Shown here in pieces: positions 4,428 through 61,545 of a stretch of DNA of 64,000 nucleotides. The notes below the pieces were generated by a model, which saw nothing but the letters and a program-made list of their open reading frames with translations, was not told the origin of the DNA and made no database searches. Positions within the stretch are counted from its first letter, which is position 1; each line of letters begins with the position of its first letter. The position numbers and the translations under genes were made by a program. This DNA is from Heterobilharzia americana (taxonomy: Eukaryota > Platyhelminthes > Trematoda > Strigeidida > Schistosomatidae): assembly GCA_944470555.2 (NCBI GenBank), contig OX104134.1:110292701-110356700 (forward strand). The letters are read 5' to 3'.

Positions 4428-4645
4428 CAAATGTTTTAAGGTCTTTTCATTGGACCAGCCAGTGTATGCACCTCTTCTCGCTCCCCACGGTTTGTTGCAT
4501 GATCCAGTCCACCACAGTCAGGAAGATCATCGGTGATAGTAAGCAGCCCTGTCTTACTTTTGTCTTCTGTCTTCACTTCAAGGGAATCACTGAACTTTCT
4601 TTTGATATGATTCACAATCTGGTTTTACAGTGTGAGAGTAAATCG
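3583..4645 (-). mobile_element. RTE-type retrotransposon 3' fragment
   Basis: The 3' end, with CCACTAGGAACCCAAGGGGC then an A/T tail, lies at about 3583-3612 and matches the 3' end of the 47.5 kb copy near 49905-49930. Upstream on the minus strand are the C-terminal peptides (MWRSTALSIKREQDPNFQHQ and related) and the palm region to about 4640 (KVRQGCLLSPMIFLTVVDW-like after frame correction). The element is 5'-truncated and carries frameshifts. Confidence 0.85.
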
Positions 4646-4679
4646 GCTAGAAGTCTTGTGACCAGGTTTTGAGGTTGTT

Positions 4680-4835
4680 GAAACACATCAAGAAAGCATA
4701 CCTGCAACCATGGGTAAACTGCTGTCATCTCAGTGGTTCGGACCAGCATCGTTCAGCCCTGAAGTTTAAGACTTGAATACTGAGATGTTCAGTCCATCTG
4801 CATTTGTAAACCTATATTTAGTCTTCTGAATTATT
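4680..4835 (-). mobile_element. tRNA-headed SINE relic
   Basis: On the minus strand the order is a B-box-like motif (GGTCCGAACCACTGAG), then AGCAGTTTACCC, then TTGCAGGTATGC. The same order, with similar spacing, occurs at 10310-10475. The A-box is poorly kept and the hammerhead segment present in the sister copy is not recognisable. Confidence 0.5.
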
Positions 4836-7985: not shown

Positions 7986-10305
7986 AATGTGTTTTGAGGT
8001 TAACAGGGATTTTATTCTAAATTGCAGACTGTCTTATTTTCATCAGCAGATAGAAATATATTTACCTGGAGCTTCGGTTATTAGTTGTTTTCAGCAAACT
8101 GCCTTAGGGAATTCGAAAGCGCTTATATTTCCAGCCATCGTACTAAATGCATACGTTCTAGTAAAAGTAAATATTTTTGCAAAGAAAAAGTGTTGCTTTC
8201 AGAAAATCAAAACATGCTTAGTTTGACTTTTATTCAATGTCAAGGTAAACAGAGGAATAAACGAATACTGGATAGTTTAGTTCACAAAGTTTATATTAAA
8301 AGTAACTTGGCTTTTTAGCATATTTGAAACATATGTTATTCTCACCAGTTTTAATTAAAGCTGATAAATTAGGAGTTCCTACAGTATTGTCAAAATTTAC
8401 TAAAGTGGACTAATTGTTTTAAAAGTTGACCTTTTTTGTACATCTCAACCACGCATAGTATAAAATATGCTTCGGTAGAAAGATACTTTGATCTGGAGCT
8501 GTTAATGATAATTGTTTCAGTGATTTACTGATCACTACTGTCAGTGAATATTGATTGAAAACTCCAACCAATGTTATCTTGAAAAAGTATTCCCTGAAGA
8601 AGACCGATTCTCTTTGAATCTGTTTCTCTGTAGAAACTACCCATATCTACGCAAATATATACGTTTATCAAAAATTCTGACACATTATCACGTAAAATGA
8701 CACGTAACATATAAGTAGAAAATGAGCAAGAGTTGGAACAAAACAGCCATACCGAGTCTTTCAAAAACGAGGAAGTTTCATCCAAACATGTAAAGCTTAC
8801 CAATCTATAAACTTGTAAAAATGTACCGTATGGGTAGATATGGACGTTCATGAAATTTTCTTGTGCTCAGTTTTCGCTCATCCAAGAAAACCAGTGTTTA
8901 TTCAGTTTTTAATTTCTCTACAGTTTTCATTTCATAAAAGTGTTTGAAAACAAAAATATCTACCAGATAAAATAGTAAGAGGATTTATTATAATTCTTAG
9001 ACTCCGAAAACACTGTGCTGAGTTAATGTTGCGAACTGTAACCAATTCCGCCAGCAGTGACTGATTATAAACAGCATAAAAAGGCTGTAGAGTAGGCAAA
9101 TGTATTCGATGCCGTTTATTTTTTGTGAAATTCACCATCAAGTTTTTCAGTAATACCACAGTGATTAATTTTATTGGAAAGCTACGTGTTTAACTTTACA
9201 GAACCCAAAAAAGATAATATTTGCAAACTTAAAAATGTTTTTTTCTCATTTCACAAGTCTCTAGTAATAAATTTATGCACAAAAGTAATTTAAAATCTTG
9301 GAAAAGACGTTCATTTTTTCTCACGGCATAAAGTGAAAGTGTCTTGGATATGTAACGTTTTGTAAGTTGGTATGATGTCTATATTTATTCGCCATCAGCA
9401 AAAAAAGATTCGAAAACAAATCATTAAACAAAACAAGCAAACCGATTTATTATGCAATTTCCACAATAATGGCTCTTGGGAATTTTTAGGCTTTACACAT
9501 ATGAAAGCCACATTGACTGTGTTGTAGGCGTTAGACGGCTATTTTTTGAGCTTACAAAAGATTTGCAGCTGAGGATAAGGATGATACTTGTTACGTGTTC
9601 TCCAGGTTTTGAAGTTTGTTTTCGTCACCAAACTAGATGACTTTGTTAGCACTTAGTTGATACAGAATTCTTCATTATCTTGTATAACAAAAATTTAGTA
9701 CAATAAATAAACTGGTATCAAACTAGGTGATTATGTTTCAGCGATGAAGTTTGGTCGACAGAAGTTAATCGGTAAACCGAGAAACAGAGATATCTCAAGG
9801 TTTGTAAATTCGGATAAAATGTCTTTAATGTACGTTTCATTGAAGGCTTTCACATATGCAAGCATAAATATTGGAAATGATAACCAAACATAAGTCTGTT
9901 GATTGAAAATAAACTTTGATGTAAGTGAAATGATGAAATACTAACCACAGGAACTCAGCACAGTGACTGACTGGTAACTTAACAGTACTGGAGTCATTCC
10001 CTCACTGGATTATAAATGTGAATTGTTGCTTAACTTTTTCCTCAAAGCTGAGAAGGTAAACACAGATTTTTCCTTGCCACATAGTCTTACTGCATAATGC
10101 CGCACAGCGTCTAGTGGAAACTGAATCTGATCTGCCACAGATAAGCTACTGACTTTAAGAAATATAACAAATCCTTGTATTGTTATGATCTGGTGGCTCG
10201 ATATTCCAAGATTTTTTGTTTAAGTAAGACTCTACATCATAAACAAAAGTAAAGTGTTTTGGATTGTGAAACAAATATGAACTTTATTGTTAGATGGGAA
10301 GAACC
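7986..10305. other. Intron sequence, nothing recognised
   Basis: AT-rich sequence within the long intron between exons 14181-14283 and 6798-7566. Short ORFs occur on both strands without splice signals or recognisable peptides. Confidence 0.5.
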
Positions 10306-10309
10306 AATA

Positions 10310-10475
10310 GGAAAGAAACTCTGAACTTAGTTTTCGGGCTTAATGGAACCCATCAGCAGCATATACCTGCAGCTATGAGGAAACTGGTGCTCTCCCGGTG
10401 ATCTGAACCTAAATCACCTAATGCTGAAGCCGGAGATTTAACCATTAGTCTATTCATGCCCCGACTGACTTATTA
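10310..10475 (-). mobile_element. tRNA-derived SINE with hammerhead-like end (family 2)
   Basis: On the minus strand: A-box-like GACTAATGGTTAAATCTCCGG, B-box-like GGTTCAGATCACC, then GGGAGAGCACCAGTTTCC and a hammerhead-like end at 10318-10362. The same order is seen at 12655-12845 and 21225-21490. Confidence 0.65.
10318..10362 (-). ncRNA. Degenerate hammerhead ribozyme (family 2)
   Basis: CTGATGG at 10350-10356 (A9 to G), a partial stem II of GGG and CCC, GAAA at 10332-10335, and the near-palindrome AACTAAGTT at stem III before CAGAG. Stem I pairs over only about three bases. Probably inactive. Confidence 0.45.
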
Positions 10476-10479
10476 TAAG

Positions 10480-12650
10480 ACTGGACTATATACATGATTA
10501 GACAACCAGCAGAAAAAGTTGTAGCATAAACATCGAAACGTTCAGAAAAATCTTTTTTCACTTCCCAAACACGTTAGAATCAAACTAAAACTAACTCATG
10601 TACTGCAGCTAATTCTTATTATGAGTTGTCATCCGCTTTTTATACCTCATTCAACTTGATTCTAGAGGTCTTAGTTTGCGGACTACAGCAAGTCTAGGCA
10701 TTTAGATAGTTTTGACTCCCATGAAGGGTATTTAAAGCACCCAGCAGTAAAAGGAAATCCTGAACCTAGTCGGCACTTGAGCACTATCCCTTCAGGGGTA
10801 TCGGAAATTGGAAGCCAATATCGTAATATCTCTGCCTATTAGTTATCGATTTAATTTACTGCAATTCACACCAGGACAGGAAACAGTTAAGTAATAAGGG
10901 TGACTCACATAGAAGTGAAAATAACAGTACCAGCAATTGTAAAACAAAACATATTCAGAGACTTGAGCAGAACAAGTGAAATAGAAGAATGTCTATGAGT
11001 GTCAGGTATTGAACGTTTGGATGAAAATAGCATTTAACATGGCCTTGAATTTCTTACAAATTCCACAATAAATTATTAAGATATGGATTTATATCCAATG
11101 TATGCAAGGAAAAAACCTAGAGAATTTTTGTAAGCAATCAACTTGTGTGTCTGTCAGTACAGACATTTGTGCAGAAGATAACATACAATTTCTCCTACTG
11201 AAACATATTTTTGTTATACAATGCATAGTTTACGGTACCTAAATTTTATCAGTAACCTGACTGTCAAGCAACATAAAAGTTTGTTGAACACAAAACCAAA
11301 AAGGATAAAACAATGAAGAGAGTTAAGTACTGGGCGTCAAACGAAAAGACTCTTTATAATATATATGATAGATTCTCTTGGGATAAGCAACGTTTCTGAC
11401 AACAAAGAAGACAACCGCAGACAACAAGAATACATTTCAGTGCTGTTTATCATTTTTTTTCTGATATGTTTTATGAAGATGAATTCACAGAATTCGAAAT
11501 ATGGCAGCTGTATGCGCATGTTTTGTCCCGAAGAAAATACACAAACTATCGATCAGTCTGCCTCGAGCTATATACAACTGAGATCTAGCAGAGCTTTCCT
11601 ACTTTTACCTCAAGCAAATATTTATTGACTATCGTCTAAAGTCTTAAAATCATATGAGCTCAATGCAACAGAAATGAATTTCTAAAGTAGCCATTTAGCA
11701 CAATAGATTTACGAATGTTGATATATCACATTTAACTAGTGGTTTGAAGAAGAAAAATGCCTGAAGCTACTGTCAAATGTTAGTTAAAAATAACTATAAA
11801 TAAATCACATACACAACAGGGAAAAGTATAGTGAAGTATTAGGCTAACTAGACATAATATTTGCCATAGATTAGTTACGTTGTTATTTCTCCTCTTAAGG
11901 AATGAAACAAGCCAGTGCAGAACTTTTTTACACGGTGGAAGATCTACTTAACACGATTAAAATGACAAACTGATCTTCTGTTCCATGTTTGCAACACTTT
12001 TCAGTTGACGTCACGAGTGAGATAAGGTTGAATAGTTTGTTGAAGTGAATTCTCGAAGCAATTTGTAGTATAGGCATTTTCTTTTCTGACTGCTAAGCCT
12101 CAAAAGTAATTTACAAATATCCGCGAAAAAGTAACAAAAGAAAATGCTATCAAGATTAGTCTCTTACAATATAAACCACAGTCTTATTACTACATTAACT
12201 CATATTACCTTGTATTCGTGATCACATAGTGGAATTTGTGTGAAGTATGCGGTAAGTGGTGCTGGTTAGAACAAGTAATAGGTGTCACCTTATTCATTCA
12301 GTAGCACCTGCTGGTCTGCTTGCCTAGCGTGACGCTAAGTTAACTCAGTGCTTGGAAGACTAGAACAAAAGGAACGGATAAGTTTGAACTAACTCAATCC
12401 CGGCAGGTTTCCCAGATGGTACGATGATCTGGCCTTTTGTCACACCTGACAGTTTATGTCTTGCATTTTATTTGCTGTATAGTGAAAATTTTAAGGTGGG
12501 TGAATTTTATTTATGTGGCAATTAACATATTATTGATTGCCCTCTGGAAGGTGAACAATTTCATGTTTTCTAGTCCAAAGTGCTGATCGAATTCTATCGA
12601 TCGTTCTGCAATACGGTCACCAAACTACGAGGCTCACCATCACGATTCCT
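10480..12650. other. Intron sequence, nothing recognised
   Basis: AT-rich. The overlapping ORFs on both strands around 11337-11628 look like chance shadows of each other; no splice-bounded exon or repeat family was identified. Confidence 0.5.
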
Positions 12651-12654
12651 TTTG

Positions 12655-12845
12655 GGGGATGCTACTTGGTTGGAGGTAAACGCAAGGGAGCCTTGAACCT
12701 AGGTTTCGTGCTTCATGACACCCGTCAGCAAGGTATGTTTGTAACCTCGAGGGAACTGATATCCCCTTTATGACTCAAGCCCATATCAACCACTGTCATA
12801 ATCAGAGACGTTATCACTGGGCTGTTCGGCCTGAGCAATCCACCT
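12655..12845 (-). mobile_element. tRNA-derived SINE, left arm of an inverted pair (family 2)
   Basis: On the minus strand from the centre outward: A-box-like GCCCAGTGATAACGTCTC, B-box-like GGGCTTGAGTC, GATATCAGTTCCCTCGAGG, ACCTTG, then a well kept hammerhead-like segment. It lies head to head with the copy at 12850-13025. Confidence 0.7.
12691..12733 (-). ncRNA. Hammerhead ribozyme-like sequence, best-kept family 2 copy
   Basis: A 43-base unit. Stem I is CCTTG (12729-12733) against CAAGG (12691-12695), five perfect pairs. The core is CTGACGG (12722-12728; consensus CUGANGA, so A9 is G). Stem II is GTGT against GCAC, three Watson-Crick pairs plus one G-U. GAAA is at 12704-12707. Stem III is the palindrome ACCTAGGT (12697-12704), followed by T and the cleavage position before CAAGG. 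A palindrome at stem III cannot close on itself stably, but two such RNAs, or two tandem units, could pair, as known for dimeric hammerheads. The A9 change probably lowers or abolishes activity in this copy. Confidence 0.6.
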
Positions 12846-12849
12846 AATT

Positions 12850-13025
12850 CAGTCCTGCAAGAGGTCAGTCGTGGTTTTAATAGCTTAGTGGTAGAGTCTC
12901 CGGCTGCAGTAGCAGGCATTGTGGATTCGAATCCTACAGGGGAAATCACTTCCCTCGAAGTTGTAGGTACACCTTGCTGACAAGTGTCGAGAAGCATGAA
13001 AGTAGGCCAAACAGGACTCCTCTCG
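12850..13025 (+). mobile_element. tRNA-derived SINE, right arm of the inverted pair (family 2)
   Basis: Clear pol III boxes on the plus strand: A-box TAGCTTAGTGGTAGAGTC (about 12880-12897) and B-box GGATTCGAATCC (about 12922-12933). GGGGAAATCACTTCCCTCGAAG, ACACCTTG and a decayed hammerhead (CTGACAAGTGTC, GAAGCATGAAAG; about 12970-13015) follow. This is the best tRNA-like promoter in the window. Confidence 0.75.
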
Positions 13026-13034
13026 ACTGACTGC

Positions 13035-14180
13035 AATCAACTAACAATTAACTCTTTATTATGTTGATCTTTTTAAAATGAATGGTAGGTCGAATATGAA
13101 AGCAAACTAGGAGCTTTGTAAACCCCTCAGTTTTATAAAGCAAACAGTAATGACTTTGCAGAGTTTCGTTTTGAAAAACTCGGAAACAATATGCAAACTG
13201 TTTTGCAGAAACTTCCTTATTCATATTCAAAAGATTTAGACGGGAATCTGCGAATTACAAATTTTCACCATAATAGCAACAGTTCATTTGAAGAAATTTA
13301 GGTTATCACGATTTTAGCGGGGAAAGTAGTTCATCAACAGCGCATCTAGAATTTTTCATTGGAAGCTCATTTGGATTTGCATCTTGAAACTTATTCTTTG
13401 ACACCACTGTTCTTTTTGTCTACACTAATAGCATTCCGACCATCAGCAGCCTGGCATGAACAAATTTTAGTGTTTCTTTGTTTTTGCGCACACTTATCAC
13501 TTCATCCTATCTTGTATGTAGAGCTGGATATACAAAATGCCACCAACAGGTTTTTCATATCGTCAGTCAGATCAAATGGTTAGAATCAGTAAACATATGA
13601 CCAGGCAATAAAATACATGGCAATTTCACCTTCAGTCTCATATTTATTACAGCGTACATTCTGAGGAATAAAACTTTATCTTCCGAAAAATGTATAAGTC
13701 CACAGTTTATAAGTCAATAACTCTTCTCGTTGTTCAGAAACAATAATTTAAACTGTATTCACTTATCCACTCCTATGATGCTTACGAGATAATTAGCATA
13801 TTAATTTTTAACAAGTTAATAGGATTTTGAAGTCAAATACATTTCTAAGGCAGTTACCAGTTTTTCATCGATTTCATCACCAGTGGCAGTTATATGACCT
13901 TATAAATAAAGCTTATCTCATAAATGAAAAATTATAATGACTGATGATAACGGTAAGTTTCACTTAGTCATTCCTTCACTCAGTAGGCATATTCAAGCAT
14001 TTCCTGTCTAGCAATTATCCCATTTGAAAATGTATAACTATGAGATTCAAAATCACATCAGAGAAGAAAACAGCAAGAAAATGTAGCTATTCAAAAATAC
14101 CGAAAGAATTTACATCAGCACAAGCAGAAATCTACGCTAGTAACACAAATAGCATATTGAAGTAAAACTTGGACACTTAC
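13035..14180. other. Intron sequence, nothing recognised
   Basis: AT-rich intron flanking the 14181-14283 exon; no repeat family or exon seen. Confidence 0.5.
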
Positions 14181-14600: not shown

Positions 14601-14924
14601 TCTTATGCGACGGGTATAGTATATATAGTAATACAAATAACAATATTATAATTCATTTTCTTGGGTGTAAAAGCCTTCGTATGACTAGTTCTTTTCAGTA
14701 AAGCGAAAACTTTAGTCGTTCGAGTAAGATCGATTAACTTTATTTAACCATCTTTTCTTCAGCTAAATACATGAATGATAGTTTAAGGAGAATCACCAAG
14801 GATGCTTTGAAATAGGGTTCATTTTCGTTGAATACGCTTAGCTCCAAACGTTCACAGGATCAGATGAATTGATATGCACCCTAGTATTTTCATCATCCTT
14901 CACTGCTTTTGTAGGCATTAACAC

Positions 14925-15015
14925 TGAGCTGTTTGGGTCAGGACCGATCTACTGTAAGACTGCATTAGATATAGTGGTTGGTCACTGGGGCGAAGTCAGG
15001 GGTATTTCGTCTTAT
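14925..15015 (-). mobile_element. SINE head relic (family 2)
   Basis: The stretch with TACTGTAAGACTGCATTAGA and TGGTTGGTCACTGGGGCGAA resembles GTAGGACTGGATTAGATACA and TTGGTCGCTGAAGGG at 21424-21460, the 5' head of the family 2 SINE. The rest of the element is absent. Confidence 0.45.
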
Positions 15016-16660: not shown

Positions 16661-16928
16661 GGCTGTGAGTTACTAACTAGGTACATCATGATCGGTTAAA
16701 GATTAATGAAAGCCGTTTAGATCAGATATGTGAACAAATTACTGAATGATGCAACTAACTCAATGCTAATGAAACTGAAGGTATATAGTCTTGATGAGTC
16801 AAAAGGTTACAGGAAATCTGAGTTGAGGCGTCCTACTGATTATCTGTATATGCCTAACCTATTCGTAAAAGTTTATTTAATGTTAGAAATCACAGCATTT
16901 AACAGTTTCATATCTAGTGTTAACTTAC

Positions 16929-17935
16929 TTCAGGTGTCAGCCTTACAGTGTCTTCTTCACGTGTGGTTAGAACTTGAGATGTCCGACGGGGCTTAGGAGG
17001 TGGCTGTGAGAATTCAGAATGGCATAGTGCGTCAGGCTGACTGGCATCATTCTTGGACGAAAATGAAAGAGACCAGCTGGGTTGGCTATCTGAATCAAAA
17101 ATCGATGTGTGAATCAAACTGAATGAGCGAGATGCGTTCTGATCACCTAAATGATGTTCACTTGGTTTAAAACTGCTGAGGTCTGGAAGTCTATCGCTAC
17201 CTTGATCGAATGAAGGAGATGATGAAAACAAGTATCCTCTAATAGTACCATCCTGTAGTAGATCAACTAAATGGGTAGATGTTTTAGTCAGTTGCACATT
17301 TCCAACATTTTCATTCATATCACCTGAATCATTTTGATTCTGAGGATCAGATAAAGATATCTGGTCATCACGAGAGGTGAGAAAGGCATCTAGTTCTAAA
17401 TTAAGGCGAGATAATGAAGCAACAGCGCTTTCACCTGGAGAACCTTCCTCAGATTTCCATGCACGATTTGAAATATCTTCATCTGGCTCTCTATTCTCAT
17501 TATCACCACTCCAGTCGCCAGTCATCCTACGTCTTGATTCATTTTGAAGGTCTAGCTGTGGCTTTTCCGAATCACTTTCTTCCAAATCTTCAATGTTTCT
17601 CGGATGACTACTACGTCCACTACCAGTAGCACTTCCAGACATAGAAGCATAACCACTGGTAGGTAGCGTAGTTGTTGGTATGTGGACATTTGTTGAGGAT
17701 CCATCTGTAATTTGCTGATTGAGACTTATCGCGTTAACACCCATACTTTGTGCTCTTTTTAATGCTGGCAGTTTACTTAGGGTACCAGCAAGGCTCCCAC
17801 TCACATTCCCTGAAGTAAAAACAGCGTCTGTCTGCTGAACTGGAACGTAATGTAAGTGATGCAGAATTCAGTCGACGTTTGGAATAAGTAGGTCCAGTTG
17901 TTCTAATTGAGTTGACCTGTCGAGCAGCTGATGGC
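16929..17935 (-). CDS. Large Ser-rich linker exon of the FARP-like gene, with FERM-adjacent motif
   Basis: The acceptor is GTTCACTTGTAG (AG at 17937-17936). The donor is CCTGAA/GTAAGT (GT at 16928-16927). Its first base completes the Arg codon left open by exon 34821-34969. The joined peptide reads SSGSSYR then PSAARQVNS, which resembles the FERM-adjacent motif (GSSFRYSGRTQKQ in vertebrate FARP). A one-base frameshift lies at the T5 run (plus-strand 17817-17821). After it the frame is open for about 300 codons: SLAGTLSKLPALKRAQSMG, acidic and Ser-rich stretches, RLNLELDAFLTSRDDQ, HLVDLLQDGTIRGYLF and a proline-basic motif QPPPKPRRTS that could bind an SH3 domain. No folded domain is recognised; it is probably a disordered regulatory linker. 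Confidence 0.85.
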
Positions 17936-21224: not shown

Positions 21225-21490
21225 AGTCAGTCTTAGTTAGACGAAGGGAATCGACAGGAGTCCCTAGATCTAGGTTTCTTGCTTGTTGTCACTCGTCAGC
21301 AAGGCTTATCTGCAAATTTGACGGAACTCATGTCCCATCTGAGTTGCAAACCTGCTTCACCCAGTACTGCAGTCAGAGAGAAAAACATGATAACTAAAAT
21401 ACTCGGGCTGCAACTGACCCCCCGTAGGACTGGATTAGATACACTGATTGGTCGCTGAAGGGTAACCAACTTCATGGTGTCTAGTTCTAC
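21225..21490 (-). mobile_element. tRNA-derived SINE with hammerhead-like end (family 2)
   Basis: From 21490 downward: head ACCCTTCAGCGACCAATCAG and TCTAATCCAGTCCTACGG, a degraded A-box near 21385, a B-box-like GGTTTGCAACTC near 21350, GACATGAGTTCCGTC, GCCTTG and the hammerhead at 21260-21304. This copy shows the full order head, pol III boxes, ribozyme. Confidence 0.7.
21260..21304 (-). ncRNA. Hammerhead ribozyme-like sequence with intact CTGACGA core (family 2)
   Basis: The core CTGACGA (21293-21299) fits the consensus. CCTTG (21300-21304) forms the 5' side of stem I. GAAA is at 21275-21278, followed by CCTAGATCTAGGG, a perfect 12-base palindrome at the stem III position. Stem II is weak (GTG against CAA) and the 3' strand of stem I reads CTAGG rather than CAAGG. 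Confidence 0.55.
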
Positions 21491-25294: not shown

Positions 25295-26440
25295 TATTTC
25301 TTTTCTCTTCTGAGAAACCAAGCTAAATAAAATACGTTTACGGGTTTGACACTGTGTACAACCAATATAAGTTGCGCCACAGGAACAAGTAAACTGACAG
25401 ATTCACACAGAGGTGACTTAAAGAGTTAGTCTGTCCTAAACACACATACAGACTAATTATCTACTGGAAAATGTGATTCTCAGTCTGGTAAAATTTCTTC
25501 GTCAAAAATTTTGAAAGGTGATTTTTGAGTATTTCAGCTGCATATCGCCTTCGAATTCCACGTTCATGTAGTATTTCTTTTAACATGGTCGACACCTTTT
25601 GTAGTTGTATCTTTTATTTCATGTTAAAGTTGACGAATCTATGCGGGTAACTGTTTCGTAGTTGTATGCTAAGTAAAAAATCGTAGCTCAGTAGATAGTT
25701 TATCTTCAGATCAGATTTTCCAACTCCTTGTTCGTAACGAACGTACAAGGTTCTGTTTACTAATGAGAGGGACATATAACATATGAGCGGATAAACCGTT
25801 CAGTTCACGCTGATCTTCTGTAGACTGATCTCTGGAGATAATTATCTGATCTTCTTGTAAGTAACACACCCAGGAATAGGAACATCGAGAGTGAATTTTA
25901 CGTATGAATGGGCAACATTAAAAATTTTCAGGAGGTTGGTCAAATGAAATTCTTCATCGCTTATCATAAAAATGTCATCGGCGTGCTTTTTGTAAAAGTA
26001 TAGTTGGCTGAATAATGAAATTAGGACACCGTTTACAAGACAGAGCATGAAGAAATCAGCTAGGAGTGAACCAAGAGAAGACGTCGTTGCTACACAATCC
26101 TTCCGTACATAGAAGTTTTCGTTCAAACTTAGACTGTATGTTGAAGGTGTATATGATGAGCAGTTCCTTCCAGGAGTTGATATGCATGGTAACATCTTAG
26201 TTCTTGGACTCAATATAGTCAAATATGATGAAGCAGGTAGTCTCAACTATGAATACGTTTGTAAGGAGAAAAGTTACATCCGGAGAAAGCATTTGTTTCT
26301 TGACCACACTGACATTTTCCCCCGACTAAATGACAAGTAATGTGTAATAATTCAGGGAGTGATCTGTTGAATCGCTGCGTTTTACCACCAAAATGGCAAC
26401 GTTTTCCCATTCGAAGTTCAGTTGACTGGTACAAGTCCAA
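25295..26440 (-). mobile_element. Penelope-like element: reverse transcriptase and GIY-YIG, degraded
   Basis: Minus-strand translation in broken frames, in order: PDVTFLLTNVFIVETTCF (palm motif A, D-V-T-x-L-F-T-N-V-type; about 26250-26300); DCVATTSSLGSLLADFFM (motif B, SSLGSLLAD); YFYKKHADDIFMI (motif C with the catalytic pair DD); LLKIFNVAHSYVKFTLDVP; and at 25350-25420 CQFTCSCGATYIGCTQ, the GIY-YIG core. The order RT then GIY-YIG is diagnostic for Penelope-like elements. Stops and frameshifts show that it is dead. The 5' part is missing. Confidence 0.85.
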
Positions 26441-34969: not shown

Positions 34970-36390
34970 CTGTCATCGTATATGATAAAGTGTTGAGCAT
35001 TATATTTATATACAAGTAATGATTAGGAATAAATTCTAGGGTAATAAATTATACGCTGCTATCTAGTCAGAATTATCAATAGTTATAATAATTCTAGGGA
35101 ATTAATTGGTTCAACATATTAACTGAAGGAACTGGGAACGACAAACTTTGAAGGCAACTTATTATTAAGGGCTAGCGTCAGTCATGGGGTTATTGAAAAT
35201 CATTATCAGATGGTTCGACATCGAATTGTAACTCGCTACATAACAGCCTGCCATGCAGTCACCATAGAAGATCTTATTCATGAATCAAGTTTTCAGTCGG
35301 TCACTCATACTTACTTCCTTCCCTGATTATATTTGGAGACTAATGTAAACCTATCTTATAGAAAGTTGCAGACAAACTTTGTACAAACTACGTAAGGATA
35401 CGTAACTCAAAGCAACTACACAATGTGTCATGCATGAAAACAATGCTGAGTTGCATCCTGTAGACACGTCTCGAGGTTCTACATCCAGAAAAAGCAATTT
35501 AAAGGAAAGTTCGAGGAATCATTGAGTGAAAATTCTAAGGGACAAAAGTTAATGCTTATCGTAATTCATTTAGTTCTTTGATTTCCCACCAACGTTTGTG
35601 CTCACTAATTCTGATAGTAACGAAGTCGAATGCTTAATACACATGATTTATGATAATGGCAACAGGGCTAGTCATTAAAATGTGTTACTTGTGAAAATGT
35701 CGAGATGATAAATCACGGTCTGTGTTGTTACATCTTTGAAGAGTATCCACAAGTTTTTTAAAAGTTTCGCTTCATTGAAGGCTTTCCTCTAGGAGTTGGC
35801 TAATAATAGCAGAAAAATGATTCTTGCTAATAAGAATATGCAAACTTCATACTTTTATATTCGGACTAATCTTAAAAGTTTACAAACCACTTTCCAAACT
35901 GCCTATCATTATCAAAAAGTAAATAACTCTGAAAGATCCACAAACTTTTTAAAGGAATTCATGTGTTTCATTCCGTATTTTTTGCAGTTGTGTAAAGCCT
36001 ACACAGAATTTAATGCATAGTTGCCATCTTTTTATAACAACTACCTGTTTATCTTTTCGGTTTATCATATCTCATGAATGTATGTAACATTAGTTTTGCA
36101 CACTGTCCCAGAAAGATAACAAGTGAAATGGAGTACTGCAGTCCTGCTCGCATAGTTTAAGGGGTAACAAATATTCTCAGATCAGATTTCTTTAGGACAG
36201 TATGAAAATCCAAAGTCTACTTAAAAAGAATCCTCAAATTTCGCAGCCTGTTCATCATCTTGCTTACGACTTTCTCAGTATAACCAGTTCGCAAGTATAC
36301 CTAGCCTTTAAAAGTAGATATATTTTACTCGATTCTTAACGGTGATTTAGCACGATTAAATCCTAAAAGTAGTGTGTGAATATTAGTGAC
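34970..36390. other. Intron sequence, nothing recognised
   Basis: AT-rich; the plus-strand ORF at 35796-36020 has no recognisable content. Confidence 0.5.
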
Positions 36391-36394
36391 GGAT

Positions 36395-36565
36395 AGTGGC
36401 TTGCAACGGAATCCAGGACACGCATTCCGTCTAATTTGGGACTCGCCAGCTAGATGTAGCTGTCTCCCAACAAACAATGTTGTTCCCACTAAGACTTAAA
36501 CCCTGGGTCGTTCGTTTCACATGCCGAAGCGTTATTTCCTCAAGCACCAAGTCACTACAGCAACT
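36395..36565 (-). mobile_element. Sm-alpha-like SINE with hammerhead
   Basis: Minus strand from 36565: A-box-like region GCTTGAGGAAATAACGC, B-box-like CCCAGGGTTTAAGTC, GTGGGAACAACATTG, then the hammerhead (36395-36456). In the ribozyme the core is CTGGCGAG (A6 to G), followed by TCCCAAATTAGAC and GGAA (from GAAA). The cleavage context GTGTC/CTGGATTCC is intact. Two core changes suggest it is inactive. Confidence 0.75.
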
Positions 36566-36699
36566 TTTGTGCAGCCAGTTTAGTTTAAATGATGTTACTT
36601 GCATTATCCCATCTTCGATTGGGTCGAAGTGATAAGTCTCTATCGAGATATGGGTTTCTGCACGGATGCCTCTGTTTCAGTTTTATATTAACAACCAAG

Positions 36700-37020
36700 T
36701 CAGTTATATTGAGGTATCCACATAGAAGCCCATATGCGAGCAGGTCGATCAATTCGATCCAGTATAACAAGGATGAATTACAAGTACCAGGAAGTAATAA
36801 TAACACCACTCCTTGGTAAGCAGGTACATCTAGTTGACGAGTCCCGAACTAGATGAAACACGCGACTTGGATTCTACTGCCAGTGCACTATCCATCATTC
36901 ATATAAAATTAATACATAGGCAATACTGAGGCATGCATGTAGGAGCCCATATGCCAATGGACACCCATCAATTCGATTCAGCCAATGATAGGATAATACA
37001 AGTAACAGCACAGTGTGTGA
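36700..37020 (+). mobile_element. Tandem hammerhead repeat: tail, ribozyme, tail
   Basis: The tail (GAGGTATCCACATAGAAGCC ... TCAATTCGATCCAGTATAAC, from 36711) recurs about 218 bases downstream (GAGGCATGCATGTAGGAGCC ... TCAATTCGATTCAGCC, from 36929), both on the plus strand, with a hammerhead (36826-36875) between them. The upstream copy has no tRNA head. It lies next to a minus-strand Sm-alpha copy (36395-36565). Similar tails follow the hammerheads at 43.4 and 60.8 kb. Confidence 0.7.
36826..36875 (+). ncRNA. Sm-alpha hammerhead ribozyme, degenerate
   Basis: ACATCTAG before TTGACGA (36834-36840; C3 to T), GTCCCGAACTAGAT in place of a closed stem II, GAAA at 36855-36858, then ACACGCGA and CTTGGATTCTACTGCC. 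The cleavage triplet GTC is GA. Recognisable but probably inactive. Confidence 0.7.
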
Positions 37021-55804: not shown

Positions 55805-58035
55805 TGATGCAATGTCCAAGAACAAACTTCAAAGGTCGGGGAATGCCAATCAATTATCACCATCCTGAGCTATAAATCTTCTCTCCTATCTCAAACGGAA
55901 ATTGACTACATGAAGATTCTAGGTTCTACAATAAATTGATGCTGAACTAAGGGTCATGAAGAGTAGAACCTATAAAAGCAAGCAGGTGCCCGAAAGTCAA
56001 AACATGTGGATAGACACTTTAAGTGATGTGACATAAATGCATCCATATTTTGTTCTTATTTTAGCCGCGGTATTGCAGTTGTTTAGCTCATCTGGCCTTA
56101 TTTTTCTTGATATCTTCCTCCGAATTCTGATCATATTATTTGCACTTTCCTTCATCTTGTTGGTCTTTACCTTGATCTGATGAGATGAACTCGTATAACC
56201 GGGAATATCACGCAGTAATTCCTAATCCTATGCTGCTAATGAAGTTCGATCTGACTGATTTGAAGGTAGCTTTGATTCATAGATTGAAATGAACCATGGA
56301 AAATCTGAAAGTGAGAAGCATTTGGCAACTGAAATGCTTAGCCTTGAGATTTAGGACTGTACGATGACAGCTCTACATAAAATCAGTCTAAGCACCTTCA
56401 GTACATATGACATGTATACTACCATCACTAGATTAGAAACTAATGTTCTGAACTTCCAAACTTTAGCCGATTCGGAGCATACACTATTGGCATCATTTTT
56501 CGCCTTCTGGATATTAGTAGTTGCCTCAATAATGTCAATTCGTGATCCAAAATGTCTGTAAAAACAATCTGAATCCTTAAAATGGCTCTTTGTTAACAGA
56601 AAAATTTAGTAATTTAAAGATACATGCTTGTGCGTAACGTTCCAAGCTATAAAGTTTTAACCTGAATATCAGCAAAAGCAGCAATAATTGCCCTCATTGG
56701 CTTCAACCTATTAACATTCATCAAAGTTCATGGTAATGGTATGCCTCCTAGCTTAGTGGACACATAACAAGATGACCGACAGAGCTTGGTCAACATTTAG
56801 GACTATATAACATGAAAACTGTATTGGTTGTGTTGTGTTCTCTGAGCGGGGTGACTTCATATTATTGACGATGTTATCTAGGAAGATAATGAAAACTTCA
56901 CGAGTAAACCACCCAGCTCAGAAAACGCAACAAAACCAAGATCATCCACCTGACCTACAAATATTCTCCACCATTTAAACAGGAAATATGGTTGATCTTC
57001 AGTTAAAAATCAACGATCAACTTTTTGAAGCAGAGATCATGATTCAAATTTTTTCAACTCAATATACCTAAACAGAATCCTTTTGCTCAAATGATATTGT
57101 GAATTTTTTTACAAGTTAGTGGACCTTAATATTCCAAATTTAAAGAGGCACTTCATGCAGATGCTGACTGAACAACTAAAAAGAAGCCGGTGTTTTTGAC
57201 TTAACATTCCTAAGGAGACAATTTGAAAGTAATGCATACAGCATAAATCAAACTTTGTCATGATTAGCCTCGTTATATTCTAGCAATTTAAGCTTTCATG
57301 ATTGATTGGGATCAAAAAAAAATAAAATCGACTTCAAGAAGATAGTTGATTTCAGCGTATTTGTATTTCGGTTGAAATCTCATTGAACTGAACTTTTAAA
57401 TCTGAATTTCTAATATTAACATAACATACATTCTACCATTATTTCAACAATTGATTTGTATTATAATAATTTAGGTTTGGGATTTACTTTGCGTCATGAG
57501 GTATTTAGAGGTGGGGTAGAGTAACATGGAAACCAATGAAACACGTGATTAAACAATTAAACATATATGTTCAGTTGAAATGAATGAAATGGTTATGTGT
57601 CAAAGCAGATCAGCAAAGAATAAATTAAGGTTTCAACTTCAGTTCATTCTTTATCATCATCATTCATTTAGTGCATCTGAAGTCAATAGATAAGTCACAC
57701 AGAAAATGTCGTAGTGCAGTGCTCACCTGGTTTATTTTTGTGAGAGATAAAAGGATTTTTCGCTTATTGAAAGGTTTTTGATAGCTGACCTATATTCTTC
57801 TATTAGAGTGTTCAACTCTAACAAAAAGAAAAAACCGTTGATACATAAAAAGAAAAAGTTGGCTGGTTTCATGTTTCTTTGAATTAACTGTGACCATGAT
57901 ATCTGAATTGTGTCAGATAGAAGCCTGAACTGAAAACAGTATACACTGCTCATTTAACGGAAACAGAGAAGACTAAATTTGTGTAAAAAAGAATTCGGAA
58001 AAATTGGAGTTTGAGGTTTATTTGTTTACTTTAAT
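55805..58035. other. No feature recognised
   Basis: AT-rich. The 73-codon minus-strand ORF at 57732-57953 ends in a stop just before a donor-like CCAG/GTGAGC, which argues against it being an exon in that frame. Confidence 0.4.
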
Positions 58036-61489: not shown

Positions 61490-61545
61490 AGCGACTTGAA
61501 GGAAACCTTGAGCCTGTGTTTCCTACTTGTTGGCAGTAGCTGTTT
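61490..61545 (-). mobile_element. Ribozyme-end scrap of a family 2 SINE
   Basis: Minus strand CCAACAAGTAGGAAACACAG then GCTCAAGGTTTCC. ACAAGTA, GAAAC and CTCAAGG recall the 3' half of the family 2 hammerhead (compare 21260-21304). Confidence 0.4.

Follow-up and report, generated by a model that had tools for sequence, protein, structure and literature searches.

A hammerhead SINE family of Heterobilharzia americana with a ribozyme likely related to that of Sm-alpha, probably copied by Penelope-type machinery

The classical hammerhead-bearing repeat of schistosomes is Sm-alpha, whose head derives from tRNA-Gln-TTG, as stated in the accessible part of PMC2770079. The available text of PMC8490949 attributes type I hammerheads to four W-element families of S. 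mansoni, of which three bear a weak resemblance to SMalpha, and reports that copies of W25.2 and W36.2 cleave. Palindromic stem III and dimers are known from hammerheads elsewhere, according to the available sections of PMC3088659 and PMC6155905. The accessible portions of two papers on animal retrozymes name Penelope-like elements (PLEs) as a strong candidate for the mobilising enzyme (PMC7229834) and state that no conserved motif helps to deduce the partner (PMC7761336). PLEs themselves insert as head-to-head inverted pLTRs with a 31-bp tail on one of the two and a target-site duplication of 8-10 bp (PMC3846280, from its available text), and purified PLE protein cuts and extends both target strands, with an internal cDNA start in an AC-rich stem-loop (PMC11167929). 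In the same study hammerhead mutants left PLE insertion in vitro unaffected (PMC11167929), and the ribozyme may therefore be dispensable for mobility. At the level of titles and abstract openings, with little subscription literature covered, our literature searches listed no report of head-to-head hammerhead SINEs and none that ties such SINEs to PLE integration.

Our analysis of a 64,000-nucleotide stretch of the Heterobilharzia americana genome (the window; C8:110292701-110356700) and of its repeats genome-wide leads us to read one family, F2, as a hammerhead SINE of the retrozyme sort, with a ribozyme sister to that of Sm-alpha and with RNA that, circular or uncleaved, would be copied by machinery of the PLE type. 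We place the probability of this reading at roughly 0.7.

The ribozyme copy in the window and its family

The initial annotation of the window proposed a 43-nt hammerhead with all of its parts at 12691-12733, and this is borne out by a complete type I fold. On the minus strand, 5' to 3', the motif reads CCTTG-CTGACGG-GTGT-CATGAA-GCAC-GAA-ACCTAGGT-T-CAAGG, with the following elements.

12691..12733, minus: F2 hammerhead ribozyme, decayed copy (descriptor scan and sequence)
12733-12729/12695-12691, minus: stem I
12728-12722, minus: core CTGACGG, with G at position 9
12721-12718/12711-12708, minus: stem II
12717-12712, minus: loop II
12707-12705, minus: GAA
12704-12697, minus: stem III palindrome
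12696, minus: H17, with predicted cleavage between 12696 and 12695

A descriptor of the fold, requiring a stem I of 5 bp or more, CTGANGR, a stem II of 4 or more, GAA, an A..T stem III of 3 or more, and H17, matched at this place alone when both strands of the window were scanned; one strand of 20 Mb of simulated order-1 Markov sequence gave 0 matches. Rfam searches of the window left the motif unreported even at E<=10, and the one match above cut-off and three below it were all of Sm-alpha type. A chance fold in AT-rich repeat DNA could appeal to the shortness of the motif and to the missing Rfam match, and is refuted by the simulation, the thousands of genomic copies, the canonical consensus and the covariation described below; we give it virtually no credence. 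At core position 9 the window copy has G where A is canonical, and with U at H17 its cleavage triplet is GUU, as opposed to GUC in the consensus. Mutation of A9 in the core has known effects in hammerheads. By its sequence, the window copy is a decayed member of F2.

The family was assembled from the whole genome (665 Mb, 337 contigs), with consensus loci anchored on the tRNA-like head, outside the ribozyme (1,219 candidates, 40 scored, 30 fetched). The consensus of these 30 loci reads GCAG-ATAC-GCCTTG-CTGACGA-GTGC-CAAAAA-GCAC-GAA-ACCTAGGT-C-CAGGGC-TTC-CTGC; its core CTGACGA/GAAA is canonical, H17 is C, A15.1-U16.1 is present, and cleavage is predicted after GUC. The annotation had held that a genome consensus with a broken core would speak against a hammerhead, and this objection falls because the consensus built from genome copies restores the core. 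Two details were revised: stem I, described as five pairs, comprises six pairs, an internal loop and then four pairs, and the proposed cleavage between T and CAAGG applies to the GUU of the window copy, the consensus being predicted to cleave after GUC. Numbered from the cleavage site, the F2 unit is 336 nt long, tRNA-headed and non-coding, with the hammerhead at its 3' end and the junction GTC/CAGGGC across the cleavage site (longer form ...CCTAGGTC/CAGGGCTTCC). Its sole stop-free frame of at least 60 aa is a 111-aa antisense frame, so that neither a reverse transcriptase nor a GIY-YIG frame is present, and the 3' end has no poly-A. In the consensus ARAGORN recognised only a low-threshold tRNA-Val-like fold, and in the window no tRNA.

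F2 is abundant and its individual copies are eroded. The 32-base ribozyme string has 2,039 near-matches in the genome (at most 3 mismatches) and the 20-mer upstream of it 1,643 matches (at most 1 mismatch), with 0 genome matches for the reversed control of either. The exact 32-base string occurs at at least 100 places (all listed matches have 0 mismatches), and the ribozyme of one fetched locus, L037, is the exact consensus. Under a strict test the ribozyme was intact in 8 of 84 stretches; 29 of the 84 differ in length from the consensus, 11 of these being 70 nt long, and the 55 indel-free stretches match the consensus at 0.94 in the core and 0.90 elsewhere, a difference for which we claim no significance. 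Since single copies decay, the fold looks like a property of source lineages. F2 copies at two loci (L078 and L073) scored 35 bits to HH9, whose cut-off is 52, and so stay below the Rfam gathering score. Taken together, the consensus and its copies make it very likely that the F2 family carries a type I hammerhead fold. As a separate observation, GTCAAGCA or GTGAAGCA is inserted just after the cleavage triplet in 6 of the 84 stretches (L004, L005, L011, L019, L032 and others), which should disturb stem I. Exact patterns searched in viral contigs gave nothing.

The annotation also held that traces of the motif recur at several places, each time at the same end of a repeat with a tRNA head. An nhmmer profile was built from four window copies, 12844-13031 (plus), 21438-21247 (minus), 10489-10304 (minus) and 12859-12679 (minus), and it placed the motifs at 12960-13015, 21260-21304 and 10318-10362 at the ends of full-length tRNA-headed copies with E-values of 7e-53, 4e-52 and 2e-50, which are inflated because these copies were profile seeds. 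With the 336-nt consensus of 37 loci, the copies at 12960, 21260 and 10318 gave 6e-25, 5e-51 and 2e-11; the 12960 copy is itself among the 37 (L007/L008), and the other two are not. Twenty shuffled units gave 0 matches. The placement at one end of a tRNA-headed repeat therefore stands for four of the five places. The fifth, 61490-61545, lacks the CTGA core and reaches only E 0.002, and a head-like match on the same strand (61349-61210) lies on its wrong side. The copies of F2 outside the 12531-13046 insertion, together with the other repeats mentioned below, are as follows.

21233..21488 (profile 21438-21247), minus: second F2 copy, decayed hammerhead (profile and BLAST)
10288..10484 (profile 10489-10304), minus: third F2 copy, decayed hammerhead (profile and BLAST)
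4640..4796, minus: diverged F2 copy, hammerhead core broken (profile E 1e-17; missed by consensus BLAST)
14868..14988, minus: F2 head fragment without ribozyme (profile and BLAST)
56696..56817, plus: F2 fragment, unit 16-139 (consensus BLAST E 4e-8)
61498..61535, minus: doubtful F2 tail remnant, no CTGA core (profile E 0.002; missed by the genome consensus)
36411..36455, minus: Sm-alpha-type hammerhead, left partner of a head-to-head pair (Rfam)
36828..36872, plus: Sm-alpha-type hammerhead, right partner of that pair (Rfam)
25842..26246, minus: PLE-like reverse transcriptase remnant (by eye), the seed of the genome search for long PLE-like frames

The two Sm-alpha hammerheads within 36380-36904 are arranged head-to-head. 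Elsewhere in the window, 16920-17867 (minus) is probably a coding exon; it is 100% identical to an unnamed protein of H. americana across 86% of the query.

Translated antisense, the F2 ribozyme yields peptides that occur in annotated proteins from three species, S. margrebowiei, S. curassoni and S. mattheei, and the family is therefore not confined to Heterobilharzia. The Schistosoma entries concerned (P0002, P0004-P0008) are probably annotation artefacts. These peptides also bear on whether F2 is simply W25.2, W26.2 or W27.2 of S. mansoni, a question of naming and priority that is compatible with a PLE mechanism. The W families resemble F2 in weak SMalpha similarity and extremely short stem III, and three of the four hammerhead families have orthologs in other schistosomes, as the available text of PMC8490949 has it. 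The same available text mentions neither a tRNA head nor head-to-head compounds for the W families, and we regard the identity as a serious possibility that falls somewhat short of even odds.

Three hammerhead families

The ribozyme had been presented as a second hammerhead type, different from Sm-alpha in every stem. Its paired stems are indeed distinct, but the idea of a separate design does not hold, as the outer stem I GCAG/CTGC is common to F2 and the Sm-alpha copy at 36828, the internal loop of stem I is ATAC/TTC in F2 and GTAC/TCTA in that copy, and loop II is CAAAAA in F2 and CAAATA in Sm-alpha. Because loops and outer stem I match, we regard the F2 ribozyme as a diverged sister of the Sm-alpha ribozyme with compensated stems, a relationship that the sequences make likely. 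The F2 profile matches Sm-alpha from the B box to the ribozyme at E 2e-4. The Sm-alpha stems are absent from F2, which by its stems falls outside Sm-alpha.

A third family, F3, was identified at L070:833-878, adjoining a PLE, with the ribozyme GCACTG-CTGAGGA-GTCC-CATACTA-GGAC-GAA-ACAGCTGT-C-CAGTGC and a tRNA-like head recognised by eye. Its score to Rfam Hammerhead_1 is 47.8 bits, and 12,526 near-matches occur in the genome, where the Sm-alpha ribozyme string has 15,498 matches. Among 100 listed F3 matches of the 12,526, four pairs of same-strand neighbours lie 386-403 nt apart, which suggests that the unit measures about 400 nt and that some copies are in tandem. Beyond the cleavage site, Sm-alpha copies (L089-L100) carry either of two tails, ACTATCCATCATTAATAT or ACAACCAA..AATTATCATAATTAA, perhaps the mark of two subfamilies.

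Alignment of the three families (Sm-alpha being F1) provides a test of the fold. All 14 pairs form in every family, and 7 of the 14 are changed on both sides: 4 of 6 in inner stem I, 1 of 4 in stem II and 2 of 4 in stem III. None of 500 shuffles reached the observed pairing, and all slid registers failed. The test rests on three sequences, one of them the Rfam consensus; the compensatory changes found lie between families, and differences among copies within F2 look like plain decay. Stems compensated across three families indicate selection on the fold in source lineages. This schistosomatid has at least three hammerhead SINE families in which the stems were altered by compensation and the core and much of the loops were kept; together they amount to a set of natural mutants of a hammerhead that has been studied extensively.

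A tertiary contact between stem I and loop II is known from the crystal structure of the S. mansoni hammerhead. The palindromic stem III, which the annotation had taken as the mark of ribozymes acting as dimers, is present in F2, and also in Sm-alpha and F3. The co-fold of two F2 consensus molecules is 7.4 kcal/mol better than two monomers, which permits dimers and does not show them. A ribozyme active only as a dimer was rejected because the consensus keeps the extended stem I of the Sm-alpha design.

Head-to-head compounds of F2 and of Penelope-like elements

The reported ribozyme lies in one arm of a compound insertion whose parts are as follows.

12531..13046, both orientations: F2 insertion, head-to-head compound of two arms (BLAST of unit, inverted repeat)
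12531..12829, minus: left arm, covering unit 203-336 followed by 1-167, with an outer end of type b; holds the reported ribozyme
12836..13046, plus: right arm, covering unit 163-336 followed by 1-36; its outer end, of type a, lies about 36 nt beyond the cleavage site
12874..12946, plus: tRNA-like head of the right arm (sequence)
12972..13015, plus: right-arm F2 hammerhead, decayed, with stem III and the core broken
12519..12526, no strand: left target-site duplication CAATTAAC
13045..13052, no strand: right target-site duplication CAATTAAC, overlapping the last two bases of the right arm

Within the head of the right arm, we take 12881-12896 to be A-box-like and 12923-12934 to be B-box-like.

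This arrangement is common in the family. Arms were mapped by BLAST of the 336-nt unit at 63 loci with 108 arms; L001-L007 had been chosen through a ribozyme string, L008-L037 for their resemblance to the head (40 of 1,219 scored, 30 fetched) and L038-L067 by taking the first 30 entries from 1,643 matches, all on contig C1, with L008, L040, L044 and L052 dropped as overlaps before counting. A head-to-head joint was found in 34 of the 63 loci, the remaining 29 being without such a joint, and a tail-to-tail joint in one (L009). Arm ends are concentrated: 54 lie at unit 28-50 (type a), 42 at 154-182 (type b) and 12 elsewhere, so that 96 of 108 arms end in two windows covering 15% of the unit, with the two sites about 130 nt apart. 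In every compound with both outer ends assigned (29 of 29), one end is of type a and the other of type b, for which random pairing gives p ~1e-9; in these compounds the a ends fall 30-47 nt beyond the cleavage site and the b ends at unit 156-177. The first 37 loci served to define the end windows. Among the 27 loci read later, 40 of 50 arms fall within them (10 of the 12 outlying arms coming from these loci), the joints are 14 head-to-head and 0 tail-to-tail, and the pairs are a plus b in 10 of 10.

Target duplications, defined as exact matches of at least 8 bases between the two flanks, bracket 16 of the 34 compounds (range 8-15 bp), compared with 15 of 1,122 mispaired flanks; in 18 of 34 compounds no duplication of at least 8 bp was seen. 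As duplications flank whole compounds and assigned end types always differ, two independent insertions were rejected as the origin of a compound. A tandem satellite was rejected as well, same-strand F2 neighbours being few among the matches listed (1 pair per 100 in each of two lists, of 1,643 and of 2,039). F2 inserts as two-ended compounds at 34 of 63 loci. The ends carry information on the template: with the a end situated beyond the cleavage site, the RNA that was copied extended through the ribozyme and was not a linear self-cleaved monomer, and 23 of 108 arms are longer than the 336-nt unit (up to 493 nt), which requires circular or multimeric RNA as template. A circular template is, in our judgment, somewhat favoured.

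The other hammerhead families share the layout. F3 neighbours are 12 head-to-head and 0 tail-to-tail (100 listed of 12,526), and Sm-alpha is head-to-head in at least 6 of 12 loci (the first 12 places of the match list, read from the table); Sm-alpha matches inspected by eye gave one head-to-head pair at a distance of 304 nt and one tail-to-tail pair at 1,104 nt.

Two kinds of remnant in the window, which by eye we take to be a Penelope-like reverse transcriptase and an RTE-like LINE, permitted a comparison with autonomous elements. Pfam assigned no family to the remnant at 25842..26246; as a query it gave 3,921 genome candidates, with several frames above 800 aa among the best 150 scored. Within 6 kb, PLE neighbours (best 150 of 3,921) were 10 head-to-head, 0 tail-to-tail and 1 same-strand, and LINE neighbours (best 150 of 83,967) were 2, 1 and 1, respectively, or 2, 3 and 2 within 10 kb. 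The head-to-head layout is common to the three hammerhead families and PLEs, and as an excess it is absent from the LINE sample.

In one PLE compound, L088:1085-7497, two 844-aa frames stand head-to-head in a 6.4-kb palindrome with arms of about 3.2 kb each, 99.6% identical, a 26-nt tail on one arm only and a 12-bp duplication. Its end sites are spaced by 26 nt, compared with about 130 nt in F2, and its start region, at 0.42, is not AC-rich. A hammerhead was sought in L088 and none found, and Rfam miRNA matches there were all below cut-offs. Wherever other PLE loci carry a hammerhead, the sequence belongs to F2 or F3, and comparison of the F2 unit with the ends of 19 PLE loci and L088 revealed no shared tail beyond nested or neighbouring F2 copies. 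At L078:2670-3089 an F2 copy lies inside a PLE, whose alignment to L070 resumes with an overlap of about 12 bp.

These comparisons bear on whether F2 is instead a SINE mobilised by a LINE with twin priming, its inverted arms being 5' inversions as in L1. RTE-like LINE sequences, so named by eye, are very abundant (83,967 first-look candidates, 150 scored), and duplications of 8-15 bp fit target-primed insertion. Twin priming also places 5' ends inward, in favour of this reading. An inversion of the L1 type, however, divides a single RNA and duplicates none of it. The arms of F2 share as much as whole units and stop at two fixed sites, one arm at each, for which reasons an L1-like 5' inversion was rejected; moreover, the best 150 LINE matches lack a head-to-head excess where PLE matches give 10 to 0, and the F2 unit has no poly-A 3' end. 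We therefore consider LINE mobilisation unlikely. That a PLE is the enzyme moving F2 is, on the shared architecture, the reading we lean towards. Against a PLE stand the absence of a shared tail and, in L088, of an AC-rich start and of a hammerhead; the wider spacing of the F2 sites, the 12 outlying arms, the tail-to-tail joint, the loci lacking a head-to-head joint, the compounds lacking a duplication and the eroded ribozyme copies likewise weigh against the overall reading.

Proposed life cycle and relation to described systems

In the PLE-based reading, F2 would be transcribed from its tRNA-like head, and as the unit has no TTTT stop, RNA of several units is possible. The hammerhead would cleave after GUC, acting either as a monomer, with contacts between stem I and loop II, or as a dimer paired through its palindromic stem III, and circles could form when the cleaved RNA is ligated. 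A reverse transcriptase, presumably of PLE type, would then cut both target strands, and cDNA would start at site a or site b on each strand. The cDNA from site a would run back through the ribozyme, on a template other than a linear self-cleaved monomer, and the two starts would produce a compound that is head-to-head and ends once at a and once at b, in many cases within a target duplication of 8-15 bp. Individual copies would decay after insertion.

Alternatively, the hammerhead could be a fossil without function, inherited with the repeat, and the compounds could come from snap-back DNA synthesis. Near-even decay (core 0.94 and elsewhere 0.90 in 55 stretches, 8 of 84 intact) would fit a fossil, as would the finding that PLE insertion in vitro does not need the ribozyme (PMC11167929); the available text of PMC3846280 also proposes self-priming for PLE inverted repeats. 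Compensated stems in three families nevertheless point to selection on the fold in source lineages, the exact 32-base ribozyme string persists at at least 100 places, and snap-back leaves the pairing of one a end with one b end unexplained, which together make this alternative improbable. Extending the PLE-based reading, schistosome hammerhead SINEs including Sm-alpha might all parasitise PLEs through two internal start sites on circular RNA, a generalisation for which we see the odds as even. If true, the two-site compound would be a sequence footprint that ties animal retrozymes to their enzyme, where no motif had allowed this as far as the available text of PMC7761336 states. As PLEs share the footprint of two sites, head-to-head copies and one longer arm, the partnership is testable in vitro.

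Among described systems, F2 is closest to the Sm-alpha/Sj-alpha SINE-like elements (RF00163). Both have a tRNA-like head followed by a type I hammerhead at an equal B box-to-ribozyme register, and both have the outer stem I, a similar internal loop, a similar loop II and a palindromic stem III; F2 differs in head and tail sequence and scores below Rfam thresholds. In unit length F2 (336 nt) is close to W36.2_W001 (335 bp), and with W25.2, W26.2 and W27.2, compared by description only, it shares a type I hammerhead, weak SMalpha similarity and a very short stem III, so far as the accessible text of PMC8490949 describes them. PLE mini-hammerheads resemble F2 in their type I fold and minimal stem III, with dimer action proposed for them in the available sections of PMC7229834 and PMC7761336, and lack the extended stem I with internal loop that F2 has.

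With PLEs themselves F2 shares head-to-head copies, one longer arm, a short target-site duplication and internal starts, to judge from the available text of PMC3846280 and PMC11167929; unlike them, it encodes no reverse transcriptase, and it has no sequence in common with the sampled PLE ends. From the metazoan non-LTR retrozymes, as the accessible part of PMC7229834 presents them, F2 is set apart by its tRNA-like head, by head-to-head compounds at about half of its loci and by few same-strand neighbours among those listed. It shares with those retrozymes a small non-coding unit (~170-400 nt) carrying a type I hammerhead, and F2 arms that exceed one unit likewise imply a multimeric or circular template (PMC7229834, available part).
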